From NCBI GenBank assembly GCA_903871545.1, contig CAIQHG010000083.1, positions 1-64,000 of the forward strand: DNA of 64,000 nt. Direction: 5' to 3'. A program made the translations under genes and the position numbers. Of this stretch, positions 30,902 to 46,551 are shown one piece after another. The number at the start of each line of letters is the position of its first letter. Position 1 is the stretch's first letter. The stretch is from an uncultured Burkholderiales bacterium (lineage in GTDB: Bacteria; Pseudomonadota; Gammaproteobacteria; Burkholderiales; Burkholderiaceae_C). The notes under the pieces were generated by a model. That model did not search any database. It was given only the letters and a program-made list of their open reading frames with translations, and was not told where the DNA came from.

Positions 30902-33790
30902 CTAGGTACCATTAATCATTCTGCGCAACTCAGGCACACAAGAGCCGCACTGGGTACCGCACTTTAAACTACTTTGCAATGCTGCCAGTTGTTCTTCTTT
31001 TGTACCCTGCTTTGATTTTAAATGGTCTCGAATTGCGATATCTTTAACGCCCACACAGCTACAAATTGTTGTCCCCAACTGTGCCTGTGCAATCGGGGGC
31101 GTGCTGCCCGTCATCAATAAGCGACGGCCGTACGCTTTGGTGGAGGACTGTGTTTGGAGTAATGTTTTAAGCCAACCCTCAGATGAGGTCTCCCCGGCAA
31201 TGATGAAGCCTTCAAGCACCGTGTCTGTTGAGGGGGAATGTTCATGTGGATGTGTTGAACTTTTTTGAATATGTTCAGCACTGTGCAGCCGCATACTCCT
31301 CAGCTGCCCCCTGCGAGCGTCAACGTAGCGCAAGCTCTCTTTCCCGCTAAAGCGTAAAATTTTCTCCAGTTGAAAGAGCTTTTGTATCTCGGGTGCTTGA
31401 CTACAGGCCGCGCGTAGCATTACCCCGCCGCGCTCGTGACCTTGGCTATCTGTTGAACTTAAAGGGGTACAACTGGCAAACTCGAACTCCGCCATCATGG
31501 AGCGAAGATGCTGCTGTGTGGTTCGCGCCTCATGTTCCTCAATCCATGCAACAGCGAGTAGTCTCCAGGGAAGTTCGGCTTTAAGTATTTTGACCACTGC
31601 GTGTTTGAGCTCTGGTTGTTTGGAGGTGGGACAAAACGTTGATGTGGTGAGGGCGTTAATACCCATTAGGGGTTTGTTTTGGTGATCGCGACCGCTCAAA
31701 TACGCTGCTCCCCAGTGCATTGCAATAAATGCTTGATTGGCCCCTTGGTCCGCACTGCTTTGACAGGGCACCACGATGGAGCCGCGTTTACTGGTTACGT
31801 GCACAAGGGAGCCATTAATTAAACCCAAACGCTCCATATCTTTGGGGTTTAGTTGGACAACGGGCTCGGGCACATGCCCAAAGAGCTTGCCAACTAAGCC
31901 TGTGCGGGTCATGCCGTGCCACTGATCTCTCATGCGTCCAGTGTTAAGAGAGAAGGGGTAACGAAGATCGCGCACTTCTGCAGTTTGCTCGTAGGGTAGG
32001 GCCGCAAAGTTGGCGCGCCCACTAGGTGTTGCGAATACCCCGTTCTCATAAAGACGAGGTTTACCACTTTTAAAACCCTCAGCCATGGGCCACTGCTCGG
32101 GGGTGTGCTCCAAATGTTTATAACTAAGACCCGTGATATCTAGATCACGCCCGCGAGTAGATTCACGGTGCTCATTCCAAATCTCCTCCGGCGAGAGGTA
32201 GGACATGTGCAGACCCGCGCACGTCCCCATTCCGGGCTCACGAACTAAACGCGCAGCCAAGTCCACGACGATTTGCCAATCAGGTCTGGCTTGTCCGGGA
32301 GGAGCCACTGCAGCGCGCACTCTCGTGATCCTACGCTCACTATTGGTGACAGTGCCTTCCTTCTCCCCCCAAGTTGCCGCGGGAAGCAACAGATCCGCAA
32401 ACTCGCAGGTCTCAGATGTCGCAAAAGCTTCCTGTACCACGACAAATTCTGCACGCTCAAGGGCGCGACGAACTGCATTTTGGTTGGGCATAGACTGGGC
32501 AGGATTTGTACAAGCGATCCACAGCATTTTGATCTCCCCGTCCGCTGCCGCTTCAAACATTTCAACTGCAGTTTTGCCAGGCTTTCTCGGCACATCTTCG
32601 ATGCCCCAAAGGTCGGCCACCTCTTGGCGGTGAGTTGGATTACTCATATCACGGTGCGCGCTGATCAAGTTAGCCAACCCCCCCACCTCGCGGCCCCCCA
32701 TCGCATTGGGTTGTCCAGTCAGTGAGAAAGGCCCAGCGCCCGGTTTGCCGATTTGTCCAGTTGCTAAATGAAGGTTGATCAGAGAAGCATTTTTAGCTGT
32801 GCCGCTACTGGACTGATTAAGGCCTTGGCAGTACAAGCTCAAAGTGCCTGAATTTGTTTTTAATTGCCTCCCACCCTCATCGTCCACACCCGCAAACCAT
32901 CGTGTGGCTTTAATTAGTTGTTCGTGTGTGATCCCGCAAAGCGAGCTCACGCTGTCTGGGGTGTAGTCTTTAACAAGGGTTCGTAAAGCTTCGAATCCGT
33001 GTGTGTGTGCACCGATATAAGCCTCATCAGTCCAGCCCTCTGTTAGCATCAAATTTAACATGCCGTGGAAAAGTGCAACATCAGTTCCAGGCTGAACGGG
33101 TAAATGAAGGTCTGCGCTACTTGCGGTATCTGTGCGTCTTGGATCAACAACAATAATTTTTAAATCAGGATTTTTCACCCGTGCTTCCTCAATCCTCCTA
33201 AATAATACGGGATGTGCAAAGGCAGTGTTACTCCCCACTATAAATAAGCAACTCGCGTGCATCACGTCCTCATAACAAGCGGGCGGGGCGTCGGCGCCGA
33301 GGGTGAGTTTGTAGCCCGCTACTGCGCTACTCATACACAAACGAGAGTTGGTGTCAATGTTGTTGGTGCCGATGAGTCCTTTCACCAACTTGTTGAACAC
33401 GTAATATTCCTCTGTAAGCAGTTGCCCCGATACATAAAAACCAACCGCATCTGCTCCATGTGCGCGAATAATGCTCGCTGTGGTGGAGCTGGCCAACTCC
33501 ATGGCGTCGTCCCAAGTCACAGGCACTAAAGAACTGCTTTCTCGCTCGCCGCTCATTTTGCTCATCCCGCTCGCCCGGTTCATCCGGCGCATGGGCTGGA
33601 GTAAACGTGTTTGAGAGGTGAGTGCAGGGCGAGTTGATAAATGAAGTGTTGAGCCCTTGCTGCACAAGCGCCCAAAGTTTGCTGGGTGAGCGGGGTCTCC
33701 CCTTACGCCCGTAATCTCACCTGCGTGTGACTCGATGATCACGCCGCAACCCACACCGCAGTAAGGACAGGTAGAACGGGTTTCTTTCAT
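30902..33790 (-). CDS. nasA: Assimilatory nitrate reductase catalytic subunit with C-terminal BFD-like Fe-S domain
   Basis: N-terminal CPYCGVGCG; molybdopterin oxidoreductase domains; C-terminal CSCVGVKD...CGTQCGSCVPELR. Confidence 0.95.
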   Translation of the reverse strand: MKETRSTCPYCGVGCGVIIESHAGEITGVRGDPAHPANFGRLCSKGSTLHLSTRPALTSQTRLLQPMRRMNRASGMSKMSGERESSSLVPVTWDDAMELASSTTASIIRAHGADAVGFYVSGQLLTEEYYVFNKLVKGLIGTNNIDTNSRLCMSSAVAGYKLTLGADAPPACYEDVMHASCLFIVGSNTAFAHPVLFRRIEEARVKNPDLKIIVVDPRRTDTASSADLHLPVQPGTDVALFHGMLNLMLTEGWTDEAYIGAHTHGFEALRTLVKDYTPDSVSSLCGITHEQLIKATRWFAGVDDEGGRQLKTNSGTLSLYCQGLNQSSSGTAKNASLINLHLATGQIGKPGAGPFSLTGQPNAMGGREVGGLANLISAHRDMSNPTHRQEVADLWGIEDVPRKPGKTAVEMFEAAADGEIKMLWIACTNPAQSMPNQNAVRRALERAEFVVVQEAFATSETCEFADLLLPAATWGEKEGTVTNSERRITRVRAAVAPPGQARPDWQIVVDLAARLVREPGMGTCAGLHMSYLSPEEIWNEHRESTRGRDLDITGLSYKHLEHTPEQWPMAEGFKSGKPRLYENGVFATPSGRANFAALPYEQTAEVRDLRYPFSLNTGRMRDQWHGMTRTGLVGKLFGHVPEPVVQLNPKDMERLGLINGSLVHVTSKRGSIVVPCQSSADQGANQAFIAMHWGAAYLSGRDHQNKPLMGINALTTSTFCPTSKQPELKHAVVKILKAELPWRLLAVAWIEEHEARTTQQHLRSMMAEFEFASCTPLSSTDSQGHERGGVMLRAACSQAPEIQKLFQLEKILRFSGKESLRYVDARRGQLRSMRLHSAEHIQKSSTHPHEHSPSTDTVLEGFIIAGETSSEGWLKTLLQTQSSTKAYGRRLLMTGSTPPIAQAQLGTTICSCVGVKDIAIRDHLKSKQGTKEEQLAALQSSLKCGTQCGSCVPELRRMINGT

Positions 33791-33826: not shown

Positions 33827-34165
33827 TTAATCAAGAGCTAAAGTATTGAGTTCATTCAAATCAAGCGACACTTCCCCGTTGCTCACAAGAACCTCAAAGC
33901 TCTGAGTGCAACCCTCGTCGGGTTCTGCAGCGCAACCACTAGAGAGATCAATTTGCCAGTTATGCAAAGGGCAAGCGACGGTTTGACCGTAAACAATGCC
34001 CTGACTGAGTGGCCCCCCTTTATGGGGGCAACGGTCGAGGAGTGCAAAGACTTTGTTCTCCGCGTTTCGAAATACGGCGACCTCTGCCCCCCTTTCGCGG
34101 CGCACGCGGCGTGCGCCGAGCACTGGGATATCTTCTAGCTTACAAATCGTTTTCCATTCAGACAT
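33827..34165 (-). CDS. nirD: Nitrite reductase small subunit
   Basis: Rieske-like CPHKGGPLSQGIVYGQTVACPLHNW. Confidence 0.95.
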   Translation of the reverse strand: MSEWKTICKLEDIPVLGARRVRRERGAEVAVFRNAENKVFALLDRCPHKGGPLSQGIVYGQTVACPLHNWQIDLSSGCAAEPDEGCTQSFEVLVSNGEVSLDLNELNTLALD

Positions 34166-34183: not shown

Positions 34184-36637
34184 TCATGAAAGAGATAAGG
34201 CCTCAAACTGGCGAGTGTCGACCTGAGCCTTGTCAAATTCGAACCACGGATCTGGCTCGCCCTCAAGTGTGAATTGCAACCTCGCCCATAGGGCTTTGCG
34301 ACCTTCGTGGTCATCTAAGATTTTTTTCTTCACATAATCCATCCCAACACGGTTGACGTAGTGAACTGTTCTCTCTAAGTACCAGCCCTCTTCTCTGTAG
34401 AGTTGCATAAAGGCACCTGTGAACTCAAGCACCTCAGCGGCAGTTTTAACTTTTGTGAAGAACTGGGCAACTTCGGTTTTAATGCCCCCATTGCCTGCAA
34501 TATACATCTCCCACCCACTGTCCACGCCGATGATGCCGACATCTTTGATACCAGCTTCGGCGCAGTTACGGGGACAGCCCGAGACCGCAAACTTCACCTT
34601 GTGGGGCGCGTACATTCGCCACATCGCGCGCTCTAAGTCTTTGCCCATCTTTGTGCTGTCTTGAGTGCCCATGCGGCACCACTCACTGCCTACACAGGTT
34701 TTTACGGTTCGAAGAGCCTTGGCGTAAGCGTGACCAGAGGGCATACCGATGTCCCTCCAAACATTGACCAGGTCCTCTTTTTTGACACCTAATAAATCAA
34801 TGCGCTGACCCCCTGTGACTTTGACGGTTGGGATTTTGTATTTATCAACTACATCTGCAATTCTGCGCAATTCATCCGCCGTAGTCTCACCACCCCACAT
34901 CCGGGGGATAACACTGTAGGTGCCGTCTTTTTGGATATTTGCATGGCTGCGCTCGTTGATAAAGCGGCTTTGCGGATCATCAAGCGCCTCTTTAGGCCAA
35001 CTGCTTAAGCGGTAATAATTGACAGCAGGCCTACAAGTGGCGCAACCCGTTGGGTGTCGCCAGGAAAGTGCTTTAAAGACCATCTCATTGGTTAGGAGTT
35101 TTTTCTCACGTATTGCGTCCCTTACCTCTTGGTGAGAGCTATCGGTACAGCCACAAATGGCCTTTTTCTTAGGCGTGGCCGAGAAGTCACCACCTGCGCT
35201 GAACATCAATATTTGTTCAACTAAGCCGGTACAAGATCCGCAGGAGGCGCTCGCTTTGGTGTGTTTGCGCACCTCCTCTAAGGTGAACAAACCCCTCTCT
35301 TTGATGGCCTTACAGATAGTGCCTTTACTGATACCGTTGCAACCGCAAACCTCCGCCTCGTCTGGCATGGTGGCAGCTTTGCTGTGACCCTCATGACCTA
35401 CGTCCCCGATGTTGGATTCGCCGAACATGAGTTTTTCTCTTATGTCGGATATGTTTCTTGCGTCCCTAAGGAGTTTGAAATACCAACTACCGTCAACTGT
35501 ATCCCCGTACAAACAAGCACCAATCAACTGATCGTCTTTGATGACGAGCTTTTTGTAAACCCCCTCTTTGGGATCGCTTAGGACGATCTCCTCTGTGGAG
35601 CCATCATCGCTGCCAGTAAAGTTACCTGCGCTGAACAAATCAATGCCAGTTACTTTTAATTTGGTTGATGTCAAAGAACCCGTGTAGCGACCGATGCCGT
35701 ACTCTGCCAAATGGTTGGCAAGGACTTTGCCTTGCTCAAAGAGCGGCGCGACAAGTCCGTAGGCAATGCCTCGGTGTGCAGCGCATTCCCCTACTGCGTA
35801 AATGCGCGCGTCGGTTACGGTTTGAAGCGTGTCTGTGACGACTATTCCGCGCTCGCAGTGAAGACGCATCTTCTCAGCCAACGCAGTATTGGGACGAATA
35901 CCGACCGCCATCACAACGAGGTCGGCTACGGCGTAGGTGCCGTCTTTAAAGAGGACCTGCCCAACGCGCCCATTTGCGTTGCCAAGAAGCGCCTGAGTTT
36001 GAGCGTCTACCTTAAACTGCATTCCTCTTGCTTGAAGAGATTTTTGAAGCATCTGGCCCGCAGTCTTATCAAGTTGACGCTCCATGAGCCACTCAGCAGC
36101 GTGGACTACAGTCACGGCCATACCGCGTTTCATCAAACCATTGGCTGCCTCTAAACCGAGTAACCCGCCCCCGATGACGACAGCGTCCTTGTATTTCTCG
36201 GCCGCATCGATCATGGCCAGAGTGTCCGCGATGTCACGGTACGCAAGTACCCCTTCAAGCTCGCGCCCTGGGATGGGGAGCATAAAGGGGTTTGAGCCTG
36301 TGGCCAAGATCAAGCGGTCGTAGGGGGCAGAGCGTTTTTCACCTGCTGAGTTTTCGGAATAAACGATGCGTTTTGTGCGGTCAACCTGAGTGACCGTATA
36401 ACCCGTGTGCAAATTGACGTCGTTATCCTTGTACCAACTAAGCGGGTTGAGAATGATTTCCTCAATTTTTTGCTCTCCCGCTAGTACAGGGGATAACAAA
36501 ATACGGTTGTAGTTGGGGTGAGGTTCACTACCAAAGACAGTGATGTTATAAAGCTCAGGGGTGAGTTTGATGAGCTCTTCTAGAGTGCGCACACCTGCCA
36601 TACCGTTGCCCACCATCACGAGGTTCATTTTTTTCAT
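34184..36637 (-). CDS. nirB: Nitrite reductase large subunit
   Basis: FAD/NAD domains, BFD cysteines, siroheme motif CVGSEWCRMG...FAVSGCPRNCAEA. Confidence 0.97.
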   Translation of the reverse strand: MKKMNLVMVGNGMAGVRTLEELIKLTPELYNITVFGSEPHPNYNRILLSPVLAGEQKIEEIILNPLSWYKDNDVNLHTGYTVTQVDRTKRIVYSENSAGEKRSAPYDRLILATGSNPFMLPIPGRELEGVLAYRDIADTLAMIDAAEKYKDAVVIGGGLLGLEAANGLMKRGMAVTVVHAAEWLMERQLDKTAGQMLQKSLQARGMQFKVDAQTQALLGNANGRVGQVLFKDGTYAVADLVVMAVGIRPNTALAEKMRLHCERGIVVTDTLQTVTDARIYAVGECAAHRGIAYGLVAPLFEQGKVLANHLAEYGIGRYTGSLTSTKLKVTGIDLFSAGNFTGSDDGSTEEIVLSDPKEGVYKKLVIKDDQLIGACLYGDTVDGSWYFKLLRDARNISDIREKLMFGESNIGDVGHEGHSKAATMPDEAEVCGCNGISKGTICKAIKERGLFTLEEVRKHTKASASCGSCTGLVEQILMFSAGGDFSATPKKKAICGCTDSSHQEVRDAIREKKLLTNEMVFKALSWRHPTGCATCRPAVNYYRLSSWPKEALDDPQSRFINERSHANIQKDGTYSVIPRMWGGETTADELRRIADVVDKYKIPTVKVTGGQRIDLLGVKKEDLVNVWRDIGMPSGHAYAKALRTVKTCVGSEWCRMGTQDSTKMGKDLERAMWRMYAPHKVKFAVSGCPRNCAEAGIKDVGIIGVDSGWEMYIAGNGGIKTEVAQFFTKVKTAAEVLEFTGAFMQLYREEGWYLERTVHYVNRVGMDYVKKKILDDHEGRKALWARLQFTLEGEPDPWFEFDKAQVDTRQFEALSLS

Positions 36638-37467
36638 GTTTTCTCCACATGCACTTGCCGTGTATATAAAAAATCAATCACAGCTTTGCGGTAACCTTGG
36701 TAGGATGGGTCATCGGCCAAAGCAATCCGAGAGCGCGGGCGGGGTAGGCCCACTTTGAGAACTTCACCAATCGTGGCTGCGGGGCCGTTGGTCATCATCA
36801 CTATTTTGTCGGACAGGAGAACGGCTTCATCAACGTCGTGGGTAACCATCACGACGGTACTGTGTGTATTGGCAACGATGGCGAGCAACTCGTCTTGTAA
36901 TTTAGCGCGAGTCAGCGCGTCGAGCGCTCCGAAAGGCTCATCCATCAATAGCACTTGCGGCTCCATTGCAAACGCTCTTGCAATGCCAACACGTTGCTTC
37001 ATACCGCCCGATATTTCTCCAGGCCGCTTGTGCGCGGCTTGGCTAAGGCCGACCATCTCAAGCGCTGCGTGAGTGCGCGCAGCGAGTTGGGCTTTGTTCT
37101 CTTTGATTTTTAGGTCCACCACACTGCTGCGACCAAACACGCGTTCGACGCCGAGGTAGACATTTTCAAAACATGTCAACCAAGGGAGCAGAGAATGATT
37201 TTGGAATACCACGGCGCGCTCAGGACCTGGACCTGTGATTTCGCGGTTTGCACAAATAAGATTTCCTTGTGAAGGGACAGTTAATCCTGCGATTAAGTTC
37301 AGCAAGGTTGATTTGCCGCACCCTGAGTGACCAATGAGCGCTACAAATTCACCCTTAGTAACTGTCAAGTTGATATCTCGCAGTGCCGGGAAATCGCCTT
37401 TAGCAGTTTTAAAGGTTTGAGCAACGTTTTGTATCTCTAAATATTTGCTACTCAAGGTCTCGCTCAT
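36634..37467 (-). CDS. Nitrate ABC transporter ATPase
   Basis: GHSGCGKST, SGGMKQRVGIARA, LLMDEPFGALD. Confidence 0.9.
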   Translation of the reverse strand: MSETLSSKYLEIQNVAQTFKTAKGDFPALRDINLTVTKGEFVALIGHSGCGKSTLLNLIAGLTVPSQGNLICANREITGPGPERAVVFQNHSLLPWLTCFENVYLGVERVFGRSSVVDLKIKENKAQLAARTHAALEMVGLSQAAHKRPGEISGGMKQRVGIARAFAMEPQVLLMDEPFGALDALTRAKLQDELLAIVANTHSTVVMVTHDVDEAVLLSDKIVMMTNGPAATIGEVLKVGLPRPRSRIALADDPSYQGYRKAVIDFLYTRQVHVEKT

Positions 37468-38255
37468 GACTTCACCTCTTCGTAGGTGAAAGCGGTTGCA
37501 ATCTTAATGAGGATGTACTCTAAGATTAAACCAACGATACCAATCACAAAGATTGCGATGATGATGTTTTTGACGTTTAAGTTGTTCCACTCATCCCACA
37601 CCCAAAAACCAATCCCCACCCCGCCAGTCAACATCTCTGCGGCGACGATCACCAACCACGCTGTCCCCACAGCCAAGCGAACACCTGTCAGCATGTAGGG
37701 CAACACGGCGGGAAACAAAATGGTTCGCATGATCTTCCACTCTGAGAGGTTTAGTACGCGAGCAACATTCATATAGTCCTGTGGCACGCGTTGCACACCA
37801 ACCGCCGTGTTGATGATCATCGGCCAAATGGAGCAAATAAAAATAGTCCAAATTGCTGCAGGATTGGCCCCCTTAAAAACCAATAAACCAATGGGTAACC
37901 AAGCCAGTGGTGAGACGGGTCTGAGCAGACTGATGAGGGGGTTGAACATATTTGACAGAAACTTGAACCGACCAATCAAAAAACCCATCGGAATACCAAT
38001 GAGCGCGGCCAAACCAAAACCCATGGCAACTCTTTTAAGGGAGCTAAGGACGTTCCAACCCACGCCTTGGTCGTTAGGGCCGTTGCTGTAAAAAGGGTCT
38101 TTAAATACTTCAATTGCTTGTAAAAAAGTCTCCCACGGCGAGGGGAAATTGTTGGTGCTGGTGAGGGAGACGATTGACCACAACCCAACTAAAGCCGCCA
38201 TGCCCATTAGGGGGGCTAAGGCGCTAGAGATGCGTTGCCTAGAAAAATCGTTCAT
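37464..38255 (-). CDS. nrtB: Nitrate ABC transporter permease
   Basis: NrtB-like permease sequence between ATPase and NrtA. Confidence 0.9.
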   Translation of the reverse strand: MNDFSRQRISSALAPLMGMAALVGLWSIVSLTSTNNFPSPWETFLQAIEVFKDPFYSNGPNDQGVGWNVLSSLKRVAMGFGLAALIGIPMGFLIGRFKFLSNMFNPLISLLRPVSPLAWLPIGLLVFKGANPAAIWTIFICSIWPMIINTAVGVQRVPQDYMNVARVLNLSEWKIMRTILFPAVLPYMLTGVRLAVGTAWLVIVAAEMLTGGVGIGFWVWDEWNNLNVKNIIIAIFVIGIVGLILEYILIKIATAFTYEEVKS

Positions 38256-38264
38256 ATCAAGCCT

Positions 38265-39509
38265 TTAAACGTGTACTTTAAAGCTATCGGCGTATTTTTT
38301 AGGATCTTTGCCGTCCCAAACCACGCCATCAATTAATTTGGACGTACGCATCACATCTTTTGGAATGGGTGTTTTACTAGCGGTGGCCGCGTCCTTATAG
38401 AGGTCAATGTGGTTGATCTCCTTAGCTACTTTTAAGTAATCGGGGTGATCTTTAAGTAACCCCCAACGCTTGTGCTGCGTTAAGAACCACATGCCGTCTG
38501 AGAGGTAGGGAAAGTTGGTGCTGCCGTCTGCGTAAAACCGCATGAAATGAGGATCATCCCAAGTCTTACCCAAACCGTTTTGGTAGCGTCCTAAGATGCG
38601 TTGATTGATCACGTCAACACTTGTGTTAACGTATGCTTTGTCGGCGATTGTGTCCGCCATCTTCAGTTTGTTGGTAAGACCTGAGTCAATCCACTTGCTG
38701 GCCTCCAAAATAGCTGCAGTGACGGCTCTCGCTGTATTGGGATATTTGCTCACAAATTCCGCAGTAGTGCCCAGAACTTTTTCTGGATGATCTGGCCAAA
38801 TCTCTTGTGAGGTGCAGGCCGTGATTCCGATCCCGTCTGCAATCGCGCGGTGGCCCCAAGGCTCACCCACGCAGTAACCATCCATATTGCCCACACGCAT
38901 GTTGGCAACCATTTGGGGAGGCGGCACCGTGATCACTTTGGCATCTTTGAAGGGATTAATTCCTGCACTGGCTAACCAGTAATATAGCCACATGGCATGC
39001 GTGCCAGTTGGAAAGGTTTGAGCAAAGGTGTACTCATTCTTTTCCTCTTTCATCAGCTTTGCCAGACCCGCCGCGTCTACAGCACCCTTGTCCGCTAGTT
39101 TTTTGGATAGCGTGATTCCTTGCCCATTTTGGTTTAGGCCCATGAGCACCGCCATGTCTTTTTTGGGTCCTGAGGTGCCGAGGTGAACGCCGTAGATGAG
39201 CCCATATAGCGCGTGCGCAAAGTCAAGCTCACCACTGACTAATTTATCTCTTACACCCGCCCAACTCGATTCTTTGGAGGGAACGATTTTGACCCCATAC
39301 TTTTTGTCAATACCAAGCACAGAGGCCATAACAACGCTTGCACAGTCGGTGAGGGGAATAAATCCAATTTTGACTTCCTCTTTCTCGGGTTTGTCAGAAC
39401 CTCCTGCGTAAACTGATGCACGCAGGGCAGGAGCAACGCTTAGGGCAGTGGCTGAAGCGGCCTGCAAAACGTTGCGACGGCTCATGGGGACCTCCAAAAG
39501 ATCAGACAT
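38265..39509 (-). CDS. nrtA: Nitrate ABC transporter substrate-binding protein (Tat-type signal)
   Basis: SRRNVLQAASA; VKIGFIPLTDCASVVMASVLGIDKKYG; RBS AAAGGAG upstream. Confidence 0.92.
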   Translation of the reverse strand: MSDLLEVPMSRRNVLQAASATALSVAPALRASVYAGGSDKPEKEEVKIGFIPLTDCASVVMASVLGIDKKYGVKIVPSKESSWAGVRDKLVSGELDFAHALYGLIYGVHLGTSGPKKDMAVLMGLNQNGQGITLSKKLADKGAVDAAGLAKLMKEEKNEYTFAQTFPTGTHAMWLYYWLASAGINPFKDAKVITVPPPQMVANMRVGNMDGYCVGEPWGHRAIADGIGITACTSQEIWPDHPEKVLGTTAEFVSKYPNTARAVTAAILEASKWIDSGLTNKLKMADTIADKAYVNTSVDVINQRILGRYQNGLGKTWDDPHFMRFYADGSTNFPYLSDGMWFLTQHKRWGLLKDHPDYLKVAKEINHIDLYKDAATASKTPIPKDVMRTSKLIDGVVWDGKDPKKYADSFKVHV

Positions 39510-39539
39510 TTTTACAACTCCTTTGATGACTCTTAAAAC

Positions 39540-39589
39540 AAAAAAAGCGCCCGCAGAAAAACCCGTTAAAACAAGTTTTTCGCGGACGC
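39540..39589 (-). terminator. Intrinsic terminator in the nrtA leader
   Basis: Minus-strand stem GCGTCCGC-GAAAAAC / GTTTTTC-(T)-GCGGGCGC followed by TTTTTTT; lies upstream of the nrtA start. Confidence 0.85.
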
Positions 39590-39613
39590 CTTTGTCCTCA
39601 AGCTAATTCAGCT
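39584..39613 (-). promoter_or_regulatory. Candidate ANTAR (NasT) target hairpins in the nrtA leader
   Basis: RNA GGAC-AAAGGC-GUCC gives a hexaloop with A1 and G4; preceded by AGCU-GAAUU-AGCU. The GUCC arm overlaps the terminator 5' arm. Confidence 0.65.
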
Positions 39614-39628
39614 CTCTGCCAAGTGGCG

Positions 39629-39644
39629 TGCAAAAGTCATGCCC
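39629..39644 (-). promoter_or_regulatory. Candidate sigma-54 promoter for the nrt-nir-nas operon
   Basis: Minus strand GGGCATGACTTTTGCA; GG-N10-GC; predicted start just upstream of the leader hairpins. Confidence 0.7.
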
Positions 39645-39789: not shown

Positions 39790-40500
39790 TCAAGCGAGTA
39801 GGTCTGCCATATCTAGCATCCGTTTGGCAACCTCTCCTAACTTAATGCCTTGGTCCATAGCAGCTTTGCGAAGTTTGTTAAAAGCTTGCGACTCATTGAG
39901 GCCTTGACGTTGCATCAGTAAAGATTTGGCTCGGTCAACTAATTTGCGCTCTTGTAGTGCACTGCGGGCATCGTCCCGTTCTAAGCGAAGATTTTGTTCG
40001 TATTCAAAACGAGCCATGGCAACTTCAAGAATGGGGCGAATGCGTTTGCTAGAGAGTCCGTCCACAATATAGGCGCTCACCCCCACTGCAACTGCGTCTT
40101 TAACGTGTGAGGTGTCGCTGTCGTCAGTGAATAAGACGATGGGGCGACGCTCATCTCGGGTTGCGAAGACCACATGCTCTAGGGCGTCACGGGCCTCGGA
40201 CTCTGCGTCAACGATGATCAAGTCGGGCTGTAACTGTTTGATTCTGTCCGCTAAAAACACATCAGAGGGGAGTGAGGCGATCAAGTTAAAGCCGCTCTCC
40301 AGCAACCCAATGCGCAAGGCTCTAGAACGCTCAGCTTGTGTAACCGCGTGCTCGTCGCTTGGGTCTTGAACGTCCAAGTCGGGCGCCACAACAACAATTT
40401 TTAATTTTGTTGAGGTGGTTGTTTTGGAAGTCTTGTGTTTCTTCAATTGATTGACCTGAACGCATTCATTTAAGCAAATACCCACTCTAGGTCGAACCAA
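39790..40500 (-). CDS. nasT: NasT-like response regulator with ANTAR RNA-binding domain
   Basis: Receiver-like N-terminus and ANTAR C-terminus DRAKSLLMQRQGLNESQAFNKLRKAAMDQGIKLGEVAKRML. Confidence 0.9.
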   Translation of the reverse strand: MVRPRVGICLNECVQVNQLKKHKTSKTTTSTKLKIVVVAPDLDVQDPSDEHAVTQAERSRALRIGLLESGFNLIASLPSDVFLADRIKQLQPDLIIVDAESEARDALEHVVFATRDERRPIVLFTDDSDTSHVKDAVAVGVSAYIVDGLSSKRIRPILEVAMARFEYEQNLRLERDDARSALQERKLVDRAKSLLMQRQGLNESQAFNKLRKAAMDQGIKLGEVAKRMLDMADLLA

Positions 40501-40508
40501 ACTTGTGT

Positions 40509-41900
40509 CTAAATTACGGGTGGTAATCTTTCATGCCAGGTCGTCGCTTTTTGGTAAGCATAACCGATCCTCAATGCCTTATCTTCTTGATAGGCTTGGC
40601 AAACGATCTGCAAAGACAGTGGTAACCCGGCGTTTGTAAACCCATTGGGCAGGGAAAGTGCACACAAGTCTAGCAAATTCACAAAGCGTTGAAAACGGGT
40701 GGGCTGCTCTTTTTGGTCTACTTGATCAATCGCAATTGCTGCAGTTTGTGTGCTTGGAGTGAGGAATGCGTCAATGCCTTTCATGGCTGCGTTCATCTGT
40801 CGTTTCATCTCTTCTCGATGCCGCAGGGTTTCCAAATAATCATGAGCAGAGACGTTTGCGCCGCTGAGGAGTCTGCGCCTAACGAAGTCATCCATTTTTG
40901 AGCCTGGATCTTCTACAACAGCTTTGTTGAAAAAATAGGCCTCTCCCATTGTGATGTTCGTAATGGATAAGAAAATCTCTAAAGGAAAAGGCAATGCGAT
41001 GTCAACGATTTGCGCGCCCATGCCCTCTAATAGCTTCAGGGATTGGTCATAAGCCTGGAGAACCTCCCTGTCCACCCCCTCACGCTCTTGCCCGGGTAAG
41101 CGTGCAAGACGCAGACCTCGAACGCCGCCTTCAAGACTTGACATTACATCGGATACAGGGTGCCCAATGGTCAGCTTATCTTTTGAGTCTGGCCCTTGTA
41201 GTACCTCATACAAAAGCGCAACATCGCGAACTGTGCGTGCCATTGCCCCTGGTGTGTCAAGGGTTGTGCTGAGTGGCAGTATTCCGTGGGTGCTGATTCG
41301 CCCGATTGATGTTTTTAGGCCAGTGATGCCGCACCAGGCTGCCGGTTGCCTAACCGAGCAACCCGTATCTGTACCTAACGCCCAGGGTGCGAGTCTAGCT
41401 GCAACCGCAACAGCCGAACCACTACTAGATCCCCCAGGCGTGCGGGCTACTTCCTTGTCCCAAGGATTCCAAGGTGTGCCCATATGCTGATTTGTGCCCC
41501 AGGCCCCACAAGCAAACTCCACAGTGTGAGTCTTGCCAAGCACAATCATTCCTTGGCCAATTAAGCGGCGCACAACTGTTGCTGTAGTTACAGCTAGGTG
41601 ATTAAGTCTTGTCGCTGATCCACCCGTTGTAACTTTGCCCTCAATGTCAATGATGTCTTTGACGGCAATGGGAACGCCGTGAAAAGGGCCAAGTACGTGA
41701 CCTGAGCGAATTGCCTTATTTGCGCCCTGCGCTGCAAGCCGCGCTTGAGGGCCATAGACTTCTATGAATGCATGTAACTTTGGATCTAGACGCTCGATAC
41801 GGGCTAGATGTGCTTCCATGAGATCGACGGGGGAGAGCCGCCCGGACATAATCTCGTTGGATAAGACATAAGCGGGCAGTAGGGTTGGATCAGCGCTCAT
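40509..41900 (-). CDS. Amidase-signature family protein
   Basis: AVKDIID, TPGGSSSGSAVAVAA, GTDTGCSVRQPAAWCG. Confidence 0.9.
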   Translation of the reverse strand: MSADPTLLPAYVLSNEIMSGRLSPVDLMEAHLARIERLDPKLHAFIEVYGPQARLAAQGANKAIRSGHVLGPFHGVPIAVKDIIDIEGKVTTGGSATRLNHLAVTTATVVRRLIGQGMIVLGKTHTVEFACGAWGTNQHMGTPWNPWDKEVARTPGGSSSGSAVAVAARLAPWALGTDTGCSVRQPAAWCGITGLKTSIGRISTHGILPLSTTLDTPGAMARTVRDVALLYEVLQGPDSKDKLTIGHPVSDVMSSLEGGVRGLRLARLPGQEREGVDREVLQAYDQSLKLLEGMGAQIVDIALPFPLEIFLSITNITMGEAYFFNKAVVEDPGSKMDDFVRRRLLSGANVSAHDYLETLRHREEMKRQMNAAMKGIDAFLTPSTQTAAIAIDQVDQKEQPTRFQRFVNLLDLCALSLPNGFTNAGLPLSLQIVCQAYQEDKALRIGYAYQKATTWHERLPPVI

Positions 41901-41909
41901 ACAACGTTC

Positions 41910-43535
41910 CTAATGAAGGCTAACCAATGTCAGGTCGACGAACCAAGACTGAGCGGACACCATGCCCGTCACTTTCTTACTCATGGCGCGTGGGTTTAGA
42001 TCATGCACGATGTAAAGCCAAGGGGCATCGTCAACCAAACGCTCATGGGCTGTGCGAAACGCTGATTGGATCGTTGCCTCGTCACTTGCTTTGCCAGCTG
42101 TGTCAATTGCTACCTCAAATTTATCATCCTTCCATTGTGAAAAATTGCTTCCGTTTGGAGAAAAATTAGCGGCTGCAAAGTAACGCTCAAACATGGCAAT
42201 ATCGGTCGTTGGCGAACTGATATTTATTGCCATTGAGCCCTTAAGACCCGCATTATCGGGCTCTAGCCGTCCTGATGCGAAAAGTACCTGCCACTCGCTG
42301 ACATCAAACTTCACCTCGACACCGCATGCTTGTTTTAAGTTTCTTTGGATGGCTTCATTCATGGGTAACGGAACCATTTGCCCGGACCCAGAATTTGAAA
42401 TCATGACTTTAAATGACAGAGGCTTTTGAGCGTTAAAGCCCGCCTCCGCCAGCAAAGCTTTGCCCTTTACAGGGTCAAAGGTATAACGGTTTACGGGCTT
42501 TCCAAAGGCTGGATCGTTTGTCTTGAGCATTCCCACTGCGGGCTCAGCAATTCCGTTGAGCATCGTAACCAAGGAGGGGCGGTCTACACAATAGTTCAAA
42601 GCTTGCCTGACGCGAACATCTTTGAAGGGACTGTTGGTTGCTGCGATGTTATAAAACCAAGGCCAAATATGGGGGTATGAGTTGGTAACGATTGAGAACC
42701 CGGCACCTTTTAGTGAAGCGATTCCGTCTGGTGGGGGTACTTCAATCCAGTCAACTTGACCTGATCTGAGGGCCGCTAAGCGTGTGTTTGCCTCAGGAAT
42801 AGGGAGGAGCAGTACCGAGTCAAGCTTTGCTTTGCGCGCTACGTCCCAGTAACCATCCCAACGAGTCAGAGTGACGGATTGACGCGGCATGATTTGTGAT
42901 ATTTGAAAGGGGCCTGTGCCAGCTGCTGGGAGAGTGGCTACTTTAGCCCAATCACGTCCCGCCTTTTCAAAAGAGGCGGGTGAGGTAAAGAGGATGTACA
43001 CGACCATGTTCAGGAAATAGGAGGCTGGTTTCACGGTTGTTATCGCAACCGTATAGTCGTCGATCTTTTTGTAGCTGGCCAGCAGCGGTGCGCGAGCACG
43101 CACCAAACCTGTTGCAGCGGCCTCAAATTGCGGACTATCTTTTTTGTAGTAGCGGTCCAAGTTCCAAATCACGGCATCAGCGTTGAAATCTGTTGCGTCG
43201 TGGAACTTTACGCCCTTGCGCAGATGAAAAATCCATGTCGTCTTATCATTGGGTAGCTGCTCCCACCTCTCTGCCAGTCCTGGGCGAATGGTTGCTAATT
43301 TATCTGCATGGGTGAGGTCCCATAAGACTAAACCTTCAAAGGCGGGATAACCCAAAAAGCGCATACCCTCAAAGCCGTTGTTAGGCATGCCGGTTGTGGT
43401 CGGGATATCGGCTGCAGTCATAGCGATTCTTAACTGGCCCTGAGCAAAGCTAGGGGAGATTTGCAGCAAGGAAGTGCTGAGAGTTAATGCCAGTGTCAAT
43501 CGGTACAAGACGAGACGCAAAATACGAGTGCTCAT
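41910..43535 (-). CDS. Oligopeptide-type ABC substrate-binding protein (SBP family 5)
   Basis: WIFHLRKGVKFHDATDFNADAVIWNLDR; start at MSTRILRL with GGAGAA RBS. Confidence 0.92.
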   Translation of the reverse strand: MSTRILRLVLYRLTLALTLSTSLLQISPSFAQGQLRIAMTAADIPTTTGMPNNGFEGMRFLGYPAFEGLVLWDLTHADKLATIRPGLAERWEQLPNDKTTWIFHLRKGVKFHDATDFNADAVIWNLDRYYKKDSPQFEAAATGLVRARAPLLASYKKIDDYTVAITTVKPASYFLNMVVYILFTSPASFEKAGRDWAKVATLPAAGTGPFQISQIMPRQSVTLTRWDGYWDVARKAKLDSVLLLPIPEANTRLAALRSGQVDWIEVPPPDGIASLKGAGFSIVTNSYPHIWPWFYNIAATNSPFKDVRVRQALNYCVDRPSLVTMLNGIAEPAVGMLKTNDPAFGKPVNRYTFDPVKGKALLAEAGFNAQKPLSFKVMISNSGSGQMVPLPMNEAIQRNLKQACGVEVKFDVSEWQVLFASGRLEPDNAGLKGSMAINISSPTTDIAMFERYFAAANFSPNGSNFSQWKDDKFEVAIDTAGKASDEATIQSAFRTAHERLVDDAPWLYIVHDLNPRAMSKKVTGMVSAQSWFVDLTLVSLH

Positions 43536-43674
43536 GAAAGTTTCTCCAATGATTAAATGTGAGAGTTGAATAAAATGATGAAGTAAAAGGGCTGGCTTTT
43601 GAAGGGTGAGGAATCGTTTACGAGCGGACATTTTTATGGTGATTTCTTGATTGTTTTGTTATCATTTTTTAAAG

Positions 43675-44592
43675 TTAAGCGCGAACATCCATTGAAGAGC
43701 GGAGTCCGTCGCTGACCATGTTGAAGCAAATACTGGTGAGGAAGATGCAAAACCCGGGCAATATTGTGATCAATGGTTGTGTGTAAATTGCGGTGCGAAG
43801 GGTGTTGAGCATTAACCCCCACTCCGCCTCTGGCGGTTTGGTGCCTAGTCCCAGAAAAGACAGGCCTGCAGCAAGAATCATTGATACGCTGACCAAACTG
43901 GTTGCATAGACGAAGATGGGTCCAAGCACATTGGGCAACACATGGACCCGAATGATGGTGAAGTTGTCCGCGCCGCTTGCCCGTGCGGCTTCCACATAAT
44001 CGAGCTCTCGCACCCCTGTCGTCGCAGACTCGGATACGCGGATGAGGGGAGGTATAAAGACGATTGTGAGAGATAAGATGACGTTAATAATTCCCCCTCC
44101 CAATGCGCCGCTGATTGCTACTGCAAGTAACACAGATGGAAAGGCGAAGAACACATCGGTGACCCGCATGATCATTGTGTTAATCCATCCGCCCTGAAAG
44201 CCTGCGACAACGCCCAGCAATCCCCCCAGACAAAAGGCAATAACGACAGGCGTGATACCCAAAAACCAAGAGACTCGCCCGCCGTACAAAAGACGAGTCA
44301 ACATGTCTCTTCCTAATTCATCGGTTCCGAGCACGAAACCCTCATAACCAACCGGTTTTAAGCGACTCATCATATCCCCTTCAAATGGATCTTGTGAGCT
44401 CAGGAGCGGGCCAATGAGGATGGCCAAAAGCATCGCAAAGAGGACTCCGCAAAAAAAGAGGGTAGTCTTATCACGCATGAGTCTTTTTGCAACCCCTTGC
44501 CAATATCCCGTGCTCTTGTTTGTATTTACAGCCTCGTTGACAAGAGCCTGTCCCTGTGCTTTTGCGGCGAATTTAGTTGCTGTGTTGTTCAT
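43675..44592 (-). CDS. DppC/GsiD-type ABC permease
   Basis: GTDELGRDMLTRLLYGGRVSW. Confidence 0.93.
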   Translation of the reverse strand: MNNTATKFAAKAQGQALVNEAVNTNKSTGYWQGVAKRLMRDKTTLFFCGVLFAMLLAILIGPLLSSQDPFEGDMMSRLKPVGYEGFVLGTDELGRDMLTRLLYGGRVSWFLGITPVVIAFCLGGLLGVVAGFQGGWINTMIMRVTDVFFAFPSVLLAVAISGALGGGIINVILSLTIVFIPPLIRVSESATTGVRELDYVEAARASGADNFTIIRVHVLPNVLGPIFVYATSLVSVSMILAAGLSFLGLGTKPPEAEWGLMLNTLRTAIYTQPLITILPGFCIFLTSICFNMVSDGLRSSMDVRA

Positions 44593-45539
44593 GTGCGTTT
44601 GATCCTAGGGTCTAGAGTGGTTTGGATCAAGTCGACAATGAGGTTAAGGGAGACAAAAAGTAATGCAAGAGCTAGGATTGTTCCCTGCAGCATTGGTATA
44701 TCGCGTTGGAAAATGGCGTTGTTGAGCAGTAACCCAGTCCCAGGCCAACTAAAAACGGTTTCTACAAGAATGGAACCCCCCATTAAGTAGCCGAGTTGAA
44801 GGCCCATTACAGCAGAGGCACTCGGCGCTACATTCTTTAGCACGTGAGTAAATATATTGCGTTTGAGTAAGCCCTTACCTCTTAGTGTTGTAATGAAATC
44901 TTGATTAAGCACTTCAACAACGATCCCGCGCACGGTGCGAGTGATGATGCCCATTGGAATTGCAGACAGCGTTGCCGCCGGTAGGATAAGAAACTGCACG
45001 TGCTCCCAGTCCCATACCCAAGCCGTGCCACCAGGCCCTGCGCCCATGGCTGGCAAGAGATTTAGTATTACAGCAAAAATCACAACCAATACCATCCCAA
45101 GCCAATAATGAGGCAAAGACACCCCAGTAACTGCCAATGTGACTAGAGTGCGGTCAATCCAGGTGCCGCGAAACGCAGCAGCAACACCGCCGAAGATGGA
45201 ACCCAGAAAAAACCCAATCGTTGCAGCCACAACAGATAGTCTTAAGGTGTTGCGAATGGCGTTCGTGAGTTCCTCCCAAACAGAGCGGCCTGACACCAAC
45301 GAGTGTCCCAAATCCCCTTGCGCAACATGCGCTAGCCAGATGCTGAATTGGATGGGCAAAGGTTTATTTAGTCCGTATTCGTGCTTAAGTTGAATAACCA
45401 CATCAAGTGGTGCATCAGGTGGAGCAATCGCGCTGATGGGGTCACCCGGTGCGATGTGTACGAGCATGAAACATATCAAACTTACCCCTAGCGCGATTGG
45501 GACCGTGTAGAGGATACGTCGCAACAGATAAATAATCAC
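44589..45539 (-). CDS. DppB/GsiC-type ABC permease
   Basis: LLRRILYTVPIALGVSLICFMLVHIAPGDP. Confidence 0.93.
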   Translation of the reverse strand: MIIYLLRRILYTVPIALGVSLICFMLVHIAPGDPISAIAPPDAPLDVVIQLKHEYGLNKPLPIQFSIWLAHVAQGDLGHSLVSGRSVWEELTNAIRNTLRLSVVAATIGFFLGSIFGGVAAAFRGTWIDRTLVTLAVTGVSLPHYWLGMVLVVIFAVILNLLPAMGAGPGGTAWVWDWEHVQFLILPAATLSAIPMGIITRTVRGIVVEVLNQDFITTLRGKGLLKRNIFTHVLKNVAPSASAVMGLQLGYLMGGSILVETVFSWPGTGLLLNNAIFQRDIPMLQGTILALALLFVSLNLIVDLIQTTLDPRIKRT

Positions 45540-45567
45540 AAAAGAGTACTCATTCTAAATTTATAAG

Positions 45568-46551
45568 CTATAGCGCATCCGCTAAAAGCACGCATCGTGC
45601 GGCGCGATCGGGATAGGGACGCTTGGTGTGGGGCATCTCACTCAAACACTGGGAATTTACTTTTGAGCACCTAGGTGCAAAGGCACAGCCCTTAGGCAGG
45701 TGTTCTAAATTAGGGGGCGCACCAGGAATTGTTATGAGTCGCTTTCCTCTCATGCCTGGATTTACCGTAGCCCCAAGTAGACCTTGAGTGTAAGGATGAA
45801 GGGGGTTTTGCATGAGCGCGCGAGTTGGTCCCTCCTCAATGAAGCGACCTGCATACATAACCGCTATACGGTCAGCGATTTCCCCTGCAACCCCGAGATC
45901 GTGGGTAACAAAGATGACACCCATACCTAACTCTTTTTGTAATTTACGCAGCAATAAAAGTATTTGTATCTGCACAGTCGCGTCCAGTGCCGTTGTGGGT
46001 TCATCGGCTAAAAGCAGTTTAGGTTTACAAGCTAAGGCGATTGCGATCATGGCTCTTTGTCTAAGCCCTCCTGACATCTCAAAGGGGTAGGCGTTTAGAC
46101 GTTGTTTGGCGGAAGGGATCTGTACAAGCTCTAGTAGATCAAGCGCTCGTTTGTCAGCCTGTGCGCGGCTAACGCCCTCGTGGCGAACAATGGTTTCCGC
46201 GATTTGAAGGCCTATTTTGAAAACGGGGTCTAAAGCTGTCATCGGTTCTTGGAAGATCATGGATACGACCCGTCCGCGCATATTGCAGAGTTCTCTCTCA
46301 GACGCATTAATCAAGTCTTGGCCATTAACTCGCAAAGTACCTGTGATGACTGTTTTATGTGAGGGATTAAGACGCATGAGTGAGCGAAGCATGACTGATT
46401 TGCCCGAGCCGCTCTCACCGAGTACGCAAAGTGTCTCTTGCTGATGAAGCTCGAAATCAATTCCGTTGACCGCGTGAACTGTTGCATCCTTGGAGACAAA
46501 GTGCACATTAAGGTCTTTGACTTGAACTAAGGGATCTAAAGTTTTATTCAT
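45568..46551 (-). CDS. DppD-type ABC ATPase
   Basis: GESGSGKSV...LLADEPTTALDATVQ; C-terminal oligopeptide motif CAFAPRC. Confidence 0.93.
   Translation of the reverse strand: MNKTLDPLVQVKDLNVHFVSKDATVHAVNGIDFELHQQETLCVLGESGSGKSVMLRSLMRLNPSHKTVITGTLRVNGQDLINASERELCNMRGRVVSMIFQEPMTALDPVFKIGLQIAETIVRHEGVSRAQADKRALDLLELVQIPSAKQRLNAYPFEMSGGLRQRAMIAIALACKPKLLLADEPTTALDATVQIQILLLLRKLQKELGMGVIFVTHDLGVAGEIADRIAVMYAGRFIEEGPTRALMQNPLHPYTQGLLGATVNPGMRGKRLITIPGAPPNLEHLPKGCAFAPRCSKVNSQCLSEMPHTKRPYPDRAARCVLLADAL

Follow-up and report, generated by a model that had tools for sequence, protein, structure and literature searches.

The window, the whole 64,000-nucleotide stretch of DNA analyzed here, carries a nitrate assimilation operon on its minus strand in the order nrtA, ABC transporter, nirBD and nasA, with nasT directly upstream of the nrtA leader. 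The operon comprises nrtA (38,265–39,509), encoding the substrate-binding protein of a nitrate ABC transporter (PF13379, E = 5e-100), the genes for the transporter permease (37,464–38,255; TIGR01183) and ATPase (36,634–37,467; TIGR01184), both above the model cut-off, nirB (34,184–36,637) and nirD (33,827–34,165) for the large and small subunits of nitrite reductase, both with profile scores above the cut-off, and nasA (30,902–33,790), which by profile matches encodes an assimilatory nitrate reductase-like molybdoenzyme with a C-terminal BFD-like domain. The nasT gene (39,790–40,500, minus strand, start codon uncertain) encodes a pseudo-receiver and an ANTAR domain (PF03861, E = 5e-19), the latter assigned by Pfam; receiver matches by NCBIfam are weak. 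A whole-genome search detected nasT as the sole ANTAR gene, and it is 43–45% identical to rhizobial and Haematobacter ANTAR genes whose neighbors are NrtA-like genes. Farther 5′ on the same strand (40,509–46,551) lie an amidase gene and genes including those of an oligopeptide/nickel-type ABC transporter. Judged from the nearest named relative (L007), the genus is probably Limnohabitans.

NrtA carries a Tat-like signal, SRRNVL; a Tat-like motif is present in 90 of 99 relatives, and NRR in the other nine. A second in-frame ATG of nrtA is found at residue 9, immediately 5′ of SRRNVL and behind a GGAGG (39,485–39,509); either ATG looks usable as the start, and the relatives show the second one too.

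Architecture of the nrtA leader

The leader elements all lie on the minus strand. The sigma-54 promoter, GGGCATGACTTTTGCA (39,629–39,644), has its GG at 39,643–39,642 and its GC at 39,631–39,630, the GG-N10-GC arrangement within TGGCAC-N5-TTGC, and matches the TGGCACGNNNNTTGCW consensus at 10 of 12 scored positions; an equivalent site precedes nrtA in the aligned leaders of relatives. From sigma-54 geometry (12 nt past the C of the −12 element), transcription is predicted to start at about 39,618. The predicted transcript then contains a 15-nt hairpin at the P1 position (H1, GAGCU-GAAUU-AGCUU, 39,600–39,614), supported by covariation in 22 leaders and with a degenerate loop; the ANTAR-type hexaloop hairpin P2 (H3, GGAC[AAAGGC]GUCC, 39,584–39,597); an intrinsic terminator hairpin (GGCGUCC...GGGCGC, 39,547–39,590), whose GGCGUCC is common to H3; and its U7 tract (39,540–39,546). 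A Shine-Dalgarno-like AAAGGAG (39,518–39,524) precedes the nrtA ATG at 39,509. A reading made earlier from the sequence only had named the promoter, the GGAC[AAAGGC]GUCC hairpin, the terminator, the ribosome-binding site and nrtA, and each is present and correctly placed. NtrC-type sites scoring at least 9/12 are enriched among leaders (82 of 110, versus 8% of shuffles); the best candidate in the window, at 8/12, is no better than chance and was rejected.

The leader folds more stably than shuffled sequences (MFE z = −5.1), and the terminator folded alone reaches −26.5 kcal/mol. When H3 is forced, the regional MFE rises from −32.0 to −18.2 kcal/mol. The mutual exclusion of the two folds, proposed earlier because the GUCC arm lies inside the 5′ arm of the terminator, was thus borne out. 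A covariance search, suggested alongside the sequence-only reading, was run with a model trained on 20 relatives with the window left out. Applied to the window, it finds the leader at 38.8 bits (E = 9.7e-13), and in the genome it recovers the same leader at E = 5.4e-11, with the next match at E = 0.003; these E-values are rough, owing to short calibration, and the gap to the next match is wide. GGACAAAGGCGTCC has a single exact match in the 3.56 Mb genome, and pattern and covariance-model searches of the genome gave no convincing second NasT target. In two other genomes, hits at rpsG/fusA appear to be chance matches. Rfam at the gathering threshold gave no match in the window, and its weak matches to snR33, miRNA families and Alpha_RBS were dismissed as chance matches on the terminator hairpin.

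Conservation across Comamonadaceae

The leaders compared came from 80 nrtA loci, nearly all from Comamonadaceae, and from additional genomes in the same genus and family, giving 110 distinct leaders. The layout of promoter, hexaloop hairpin and terminator recurs 5′ of nrtA across the family, and the GGAC-type H3 hairpin is kept in 109 of the 110. Within those 109, G4 and C6 of the loop are invariant and A1 differs in only four (GAAGGC). AAAGGC, singled out earlier for its A1/G4 pattern, is a canonical hexaloop. Under a strict fold test the terminator pairs with the 3′ arm of H3 ahead of a U tract in 97/109 leaders; several of the failures listed have a 3′ arm of this kind, GGACGCC or GGGCGCC, ahead of a U tract that is interrupted or imperfect.

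Upstream of H3 the leaders vary. Most Comamonadaceae leaders contain three hairpins, at about +3 (H1), +28 (H2) and +60 (H3) from the predicted +1, with H1 often GACC[......]GGUC and H2 carrying [AACGGC] or similar loops. In Polaromonas-like leaders the usual pair is H2 and H3; in the window's genus it is H1 and H3, with the middle hairpin mostly absent and H3 at +18 to +23. The H1 of long leaders has a hexaloop in 57 of 64 cases, with A1/G4 in 27 of those 57; some are better drawn with UUCG (in Variovorax) or similar tetraloops. Because a hairpin needed at least four pairs to be taken as H1 or H2, and A1/G4 as well for H2, the inner pairs of both and the A1/G4 of H2 follow from the choice itself; for H2, the fifth and sixth pairs, which played no part in that choice, exceed shuffles.

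Co-occurrence of ANTAR genes and nrtA was examined in a sample of 84 genomes of the genus, with nrtA counted at ≥81% identity. It is present in 35, and 33 of these hold an ANTAR gene, adjacent in 32 and split over two contig ends in one (G175); in the two genomes without one, the contig breaks off within 400 bp on the 5′ side of nrtA. The five ANTAR genes seen in genomes that lack nrtA look AmiR-like by eye and lie before a urea-type transporter gene. ANTAR genes are present in all of twelve further relatives, including nine that gave no adjacent ANTAR match.

Three side observations concern related loci. Where they are long enough, the loci L196–L200 of the five nrtA-less genomes show the AmiR-like ANTAR gene ahead of a urtA-like gene; the latter has a good sigma-54 site, which reads TGGCACAAGGCTTGCA in three, and no A1/G4 hexaloop hairpin in the 114 nt that follow. 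In Variovorax (L043, L077) a NasR-like protein, with an NIT-like N-terminus and an ANTAR domain by eye, takes the place of NasT, and its gene precedes a leader of the window's type. Rhodoferax sp. OV413 has a second leader (L230, 1500–1770), flanked by an ANTAR gene and a nirB-like gene, that combines a sigma-54 site with an AACGGC loop.

The degenerate P1 hairpin

The P1 position, at about +1 to +5 in relatives, matches the place of H1 in the window. Across 22 short-type leaders, 9 cells changed on both sides of pairs, versus 2.3 in shuffles, a score lowered by the window and L097 rows, which are out of register; nearly all the variation sits in the H1 stem, and sliding the pairing partner destroys the pairing. 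About 2 nt separate the drawn P1 and P2 stems in the window, as in most of its genus, which is shorter than the 5–12 nt among the E. faecalis eut genes (PMC3369931); the length that suits NasT may differ from that of eut.

The loop behaves differently from the stem. Most of the genus has AAUGAC, AACGAC, AACGAA or AACGAU at P1, and L093, L094, L154 and L155 have CUCCAA. In the window and its closest relatives the loops are GAAUU (window), AAUUUA (L152), AUGACA (L002) and AUAUCA (L003, L092), all without the A1/G4 hexaloop pattern of Ramesh 2012, which P2 retains. The window H1 can be drawn with 5 bp and a 5-nt loop or, as by RNAfold, with 6 bp and a 3-nt loop, and neither drawing gives an A1/G4 hexaloop. 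In the NrtA tree these five sequences form a supported clade (100/99), and the loss of the loop letters needs one or two events; the 'canon' label in that tree is loose, as L008 has the loop GACGAA and the Variovorax entries L058 and L074 are three-hairpin leaders. Other features of the dual-hexaloop motif are found, namely the overlap of P2 with an intrinsic terminator and an ANTAR gene in the genome, here single and adjacent.

The sequence-only reading had left P1 as either degenerate or misidentified. It is not misidentified, since stem shape and place are kept and only the recognition letters are gone: the stem is compensated and sits where it does in relatives, and A1/G4 is lost clade-wide. 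The window P1 is the right hairpin, truly degenerate, in a clade that keeps the stem and has lost A1/G4. The NasT proteins of the clade have three peculiar positions in the ANTAR domain and three elsewhere; these do not establish co-adaptation of NasT with the lost loop, because only five linked sequences are involved.

Antitermination, nitrate sensing and known systems

From these comparisons, the leader is very probably a NasT-controlled transcription attenuator. RNA polymerase with sigma-54, most likely activated by NtrC under nitrogen limitation given the promoter type, would start about 109 nt upstream of nrtA. By default, as sequence and folding suggest, GGCGUCC would pair downstream and transcription would end at U7. 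Homology and synteny suggest that active NasT would bind the nascent GGAC[AAAGGC]GUCC, with the upstream hairpin helping or not; with GUCC held by NasT, the terminator would be blocked and the polymerase would read into the nrtA–transporter–nirBD–nasA operon. The antitermination by NasT proposed in the earlier reading gains support here, as conservation, nasT synteny and terminator overlap all fit it. The locus would then probably be a switch at the head of a nitrate-uptake operon in a freshwater bacterium, with the neighboring NasT opening the leader. Counting against this are a P1 without A1/G4, the weaker binding of NasR to P2 alone, the failure to find NasS, and an NtrC-site candidate in the window that does not exceed chance.

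NasR, NasT, AmiR and EutV are described as acting on two hairpins, the second of which overlaps the terminator (PMC3369931, PMC7496416). For EutV both hairpins are needed in vivo, and A1/G4 is needed for binding and induction (PMC3369931); the affinity of NasR for P2 alone is about 12-fold lower (~12 versus 1 μM; PMC7496416). The EutV structure suggests that the dimer cannot contact both hairpins together and binds one at a time, and shows G4 stacked on Tyr164, with a Met plug proposed to exclude small loops (PMC8934654). With A1/G4 missing from the upstream hairpin of the clade, NasT would have to work with one canonical hexaloop.

Two versions of the NasT-controlled attenuator differ in what the upstream hairpin does. 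It may still be a weak NasT site, read by shape with relaxed letters, which we consider close to an even chance: its stem is kept through compensatory changes across the genus, its spacing to H3 is conserved, and H1 loops drift in three-hairpin relatives too. Against this, P1 of the window has no hexaloop, and the stacking of G4 on Tyr164 and the proposed Met plug in EutV (PMC8934654) argue against recognition of so small a loop. Somewhat more tentatively, the hairpin may have ceased to serve NasT, which would use one hexaloop, and may now, as a 5′-end hairpin, guard RNA stability or prevent misfolding of the leader. The +3 hairpin of three-hairpin leaders accepts non-ANTAR loops, such as UUCG in Variovorax, with G4 of H3 always kept, which speaks for that version; against it, the upstream loop is canonical in most of the window's genus (AAUGAC, AACGAC, AACGAA), where this hairpin is the only possible P1 because H2 is missing. 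That the locus is instead a plain attenuator or relic, with a working terminator on an ancestral locus where NasT has no action, would agree with the degenerate P1, the missing NasS and the two promoter mismatches, yet it is very improbable, given that the H3 letters and terminator overlap persist in the clade, whose NrtA proteins diverge by about 9%, and that nasT is intact and adjacent to the leader.

The NasT-controlled attenuator, our preferred reading, raises the matter of the nitrate signal. In known systems NasS is an NrtA-like protein without a signal peptide that holds NasT until nitrate arrives, and a nasS mutant is constitutive (PMC5424462). Of this pair the window's genome has NasT; a search with a NasS-like query (a Haematobacter plasmid protein, L205, whose gene has an ANTAR gene on one side and an nrtA-like gene on the other) detected no NasS, that is, no cytoplasmic NrtA homolog. 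No separate NasS was found in ten genomes searched, where the best match was nrtA (31–33%), followed by a second transporter protein. A candidate on contig C3 was rejected as a Tat-signaled NrtA-like binding protein with a permease gene after it (G000; L083, 1150–3465). That NrtA itself senses nitrate is speculation, and a constitutive NasT or an unrelated sensor is equally open; because of its Tat signal, NrtA may already be folded when it leaves the cytoplasm and may, until then, retain NasT there. The combined proposal, in which the NasT of the clade antiterminates through a single canonical hexaloop, without NasS and with the nitrate signal from NrtA, is unlikely; if true, it would be a breach of the two-hairpin rule and would unite sensor and transporter.

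The field has no settled answer as to why an ANTAR protein should need a pair of hairpins. Because this lineage lacks one of the two RNA marks presumed necessary for NasT-type proteins, it offers a test of whether a single mark suffices, and the clade with lost P1 letters, beside sister species with an intact P1 (L097, L095, L100), forms a natural mutant series. A NasT without NasS poses a second testable question, on nitrate sensing.

The comparison also bears on the Rfam family narK RNA (RF03032), which aligns one-to-one with the relatives' leaders: its first 15 positions correspond to the sigma-54 promoter, its sole helix to the hairpin with the [AACGGC] loop, and the 3′ end, which the model leaves unpaired, to the GACAAAGACGUC hairpin. 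Scores lie below the gathering threshold of 43.2 bits (17.3 for the window, 31.6–41.3 for relatives), so homology is called probable only. As it matches the leaders and includes the promoter, narK RNA is probably a sigma-54 promoter plus an ANTAR target and not a stand-alone structured RNA, a link that would give this curated family a likely function. The family was reportedly named in a 2017 paper; the term 'narK RNA' was not found in the literature searched, and prior notice of the ANTAR link is possible.

The type of switch is already known, and the single canonical hexaloop and missing NasS differ from its textbook form. The NasT/NasS-controlled nas leaders of Azotobacter vinelandii, Pseudomonas putida and Paracoccus denitrificans (nasA) share with the window a NasT-type ANTAR protein, a nitrate assimilation operon and leader hairpins before a terminator (PMC5424462); unlike them, the window has no detected NasS, nrtA directly after nasT, and one canonical hexaloop. 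In the Klebsiella oxytoca nasF leader, likewise, a pair of hairpins precedes a terminator that overlaps the second of them, and its P2 has the C:G closing pair and A1/G4 loop of the window P2 (PMC7496416), whereas K. oxytoca NasR senses nitrate itself through an NIT domain and the window has NasT and a degenerate P1. With the dual-hexaloop ANTAR motif (Ramesh 2012, PMC3369931) the window shares a P2 A1/G4 hexaloop over an intrinsic terminator; compared with that motif, P1 of the window and its clade breaks the loop rule, and most Comamonadaceae leaders add a third hairpin at about +3.
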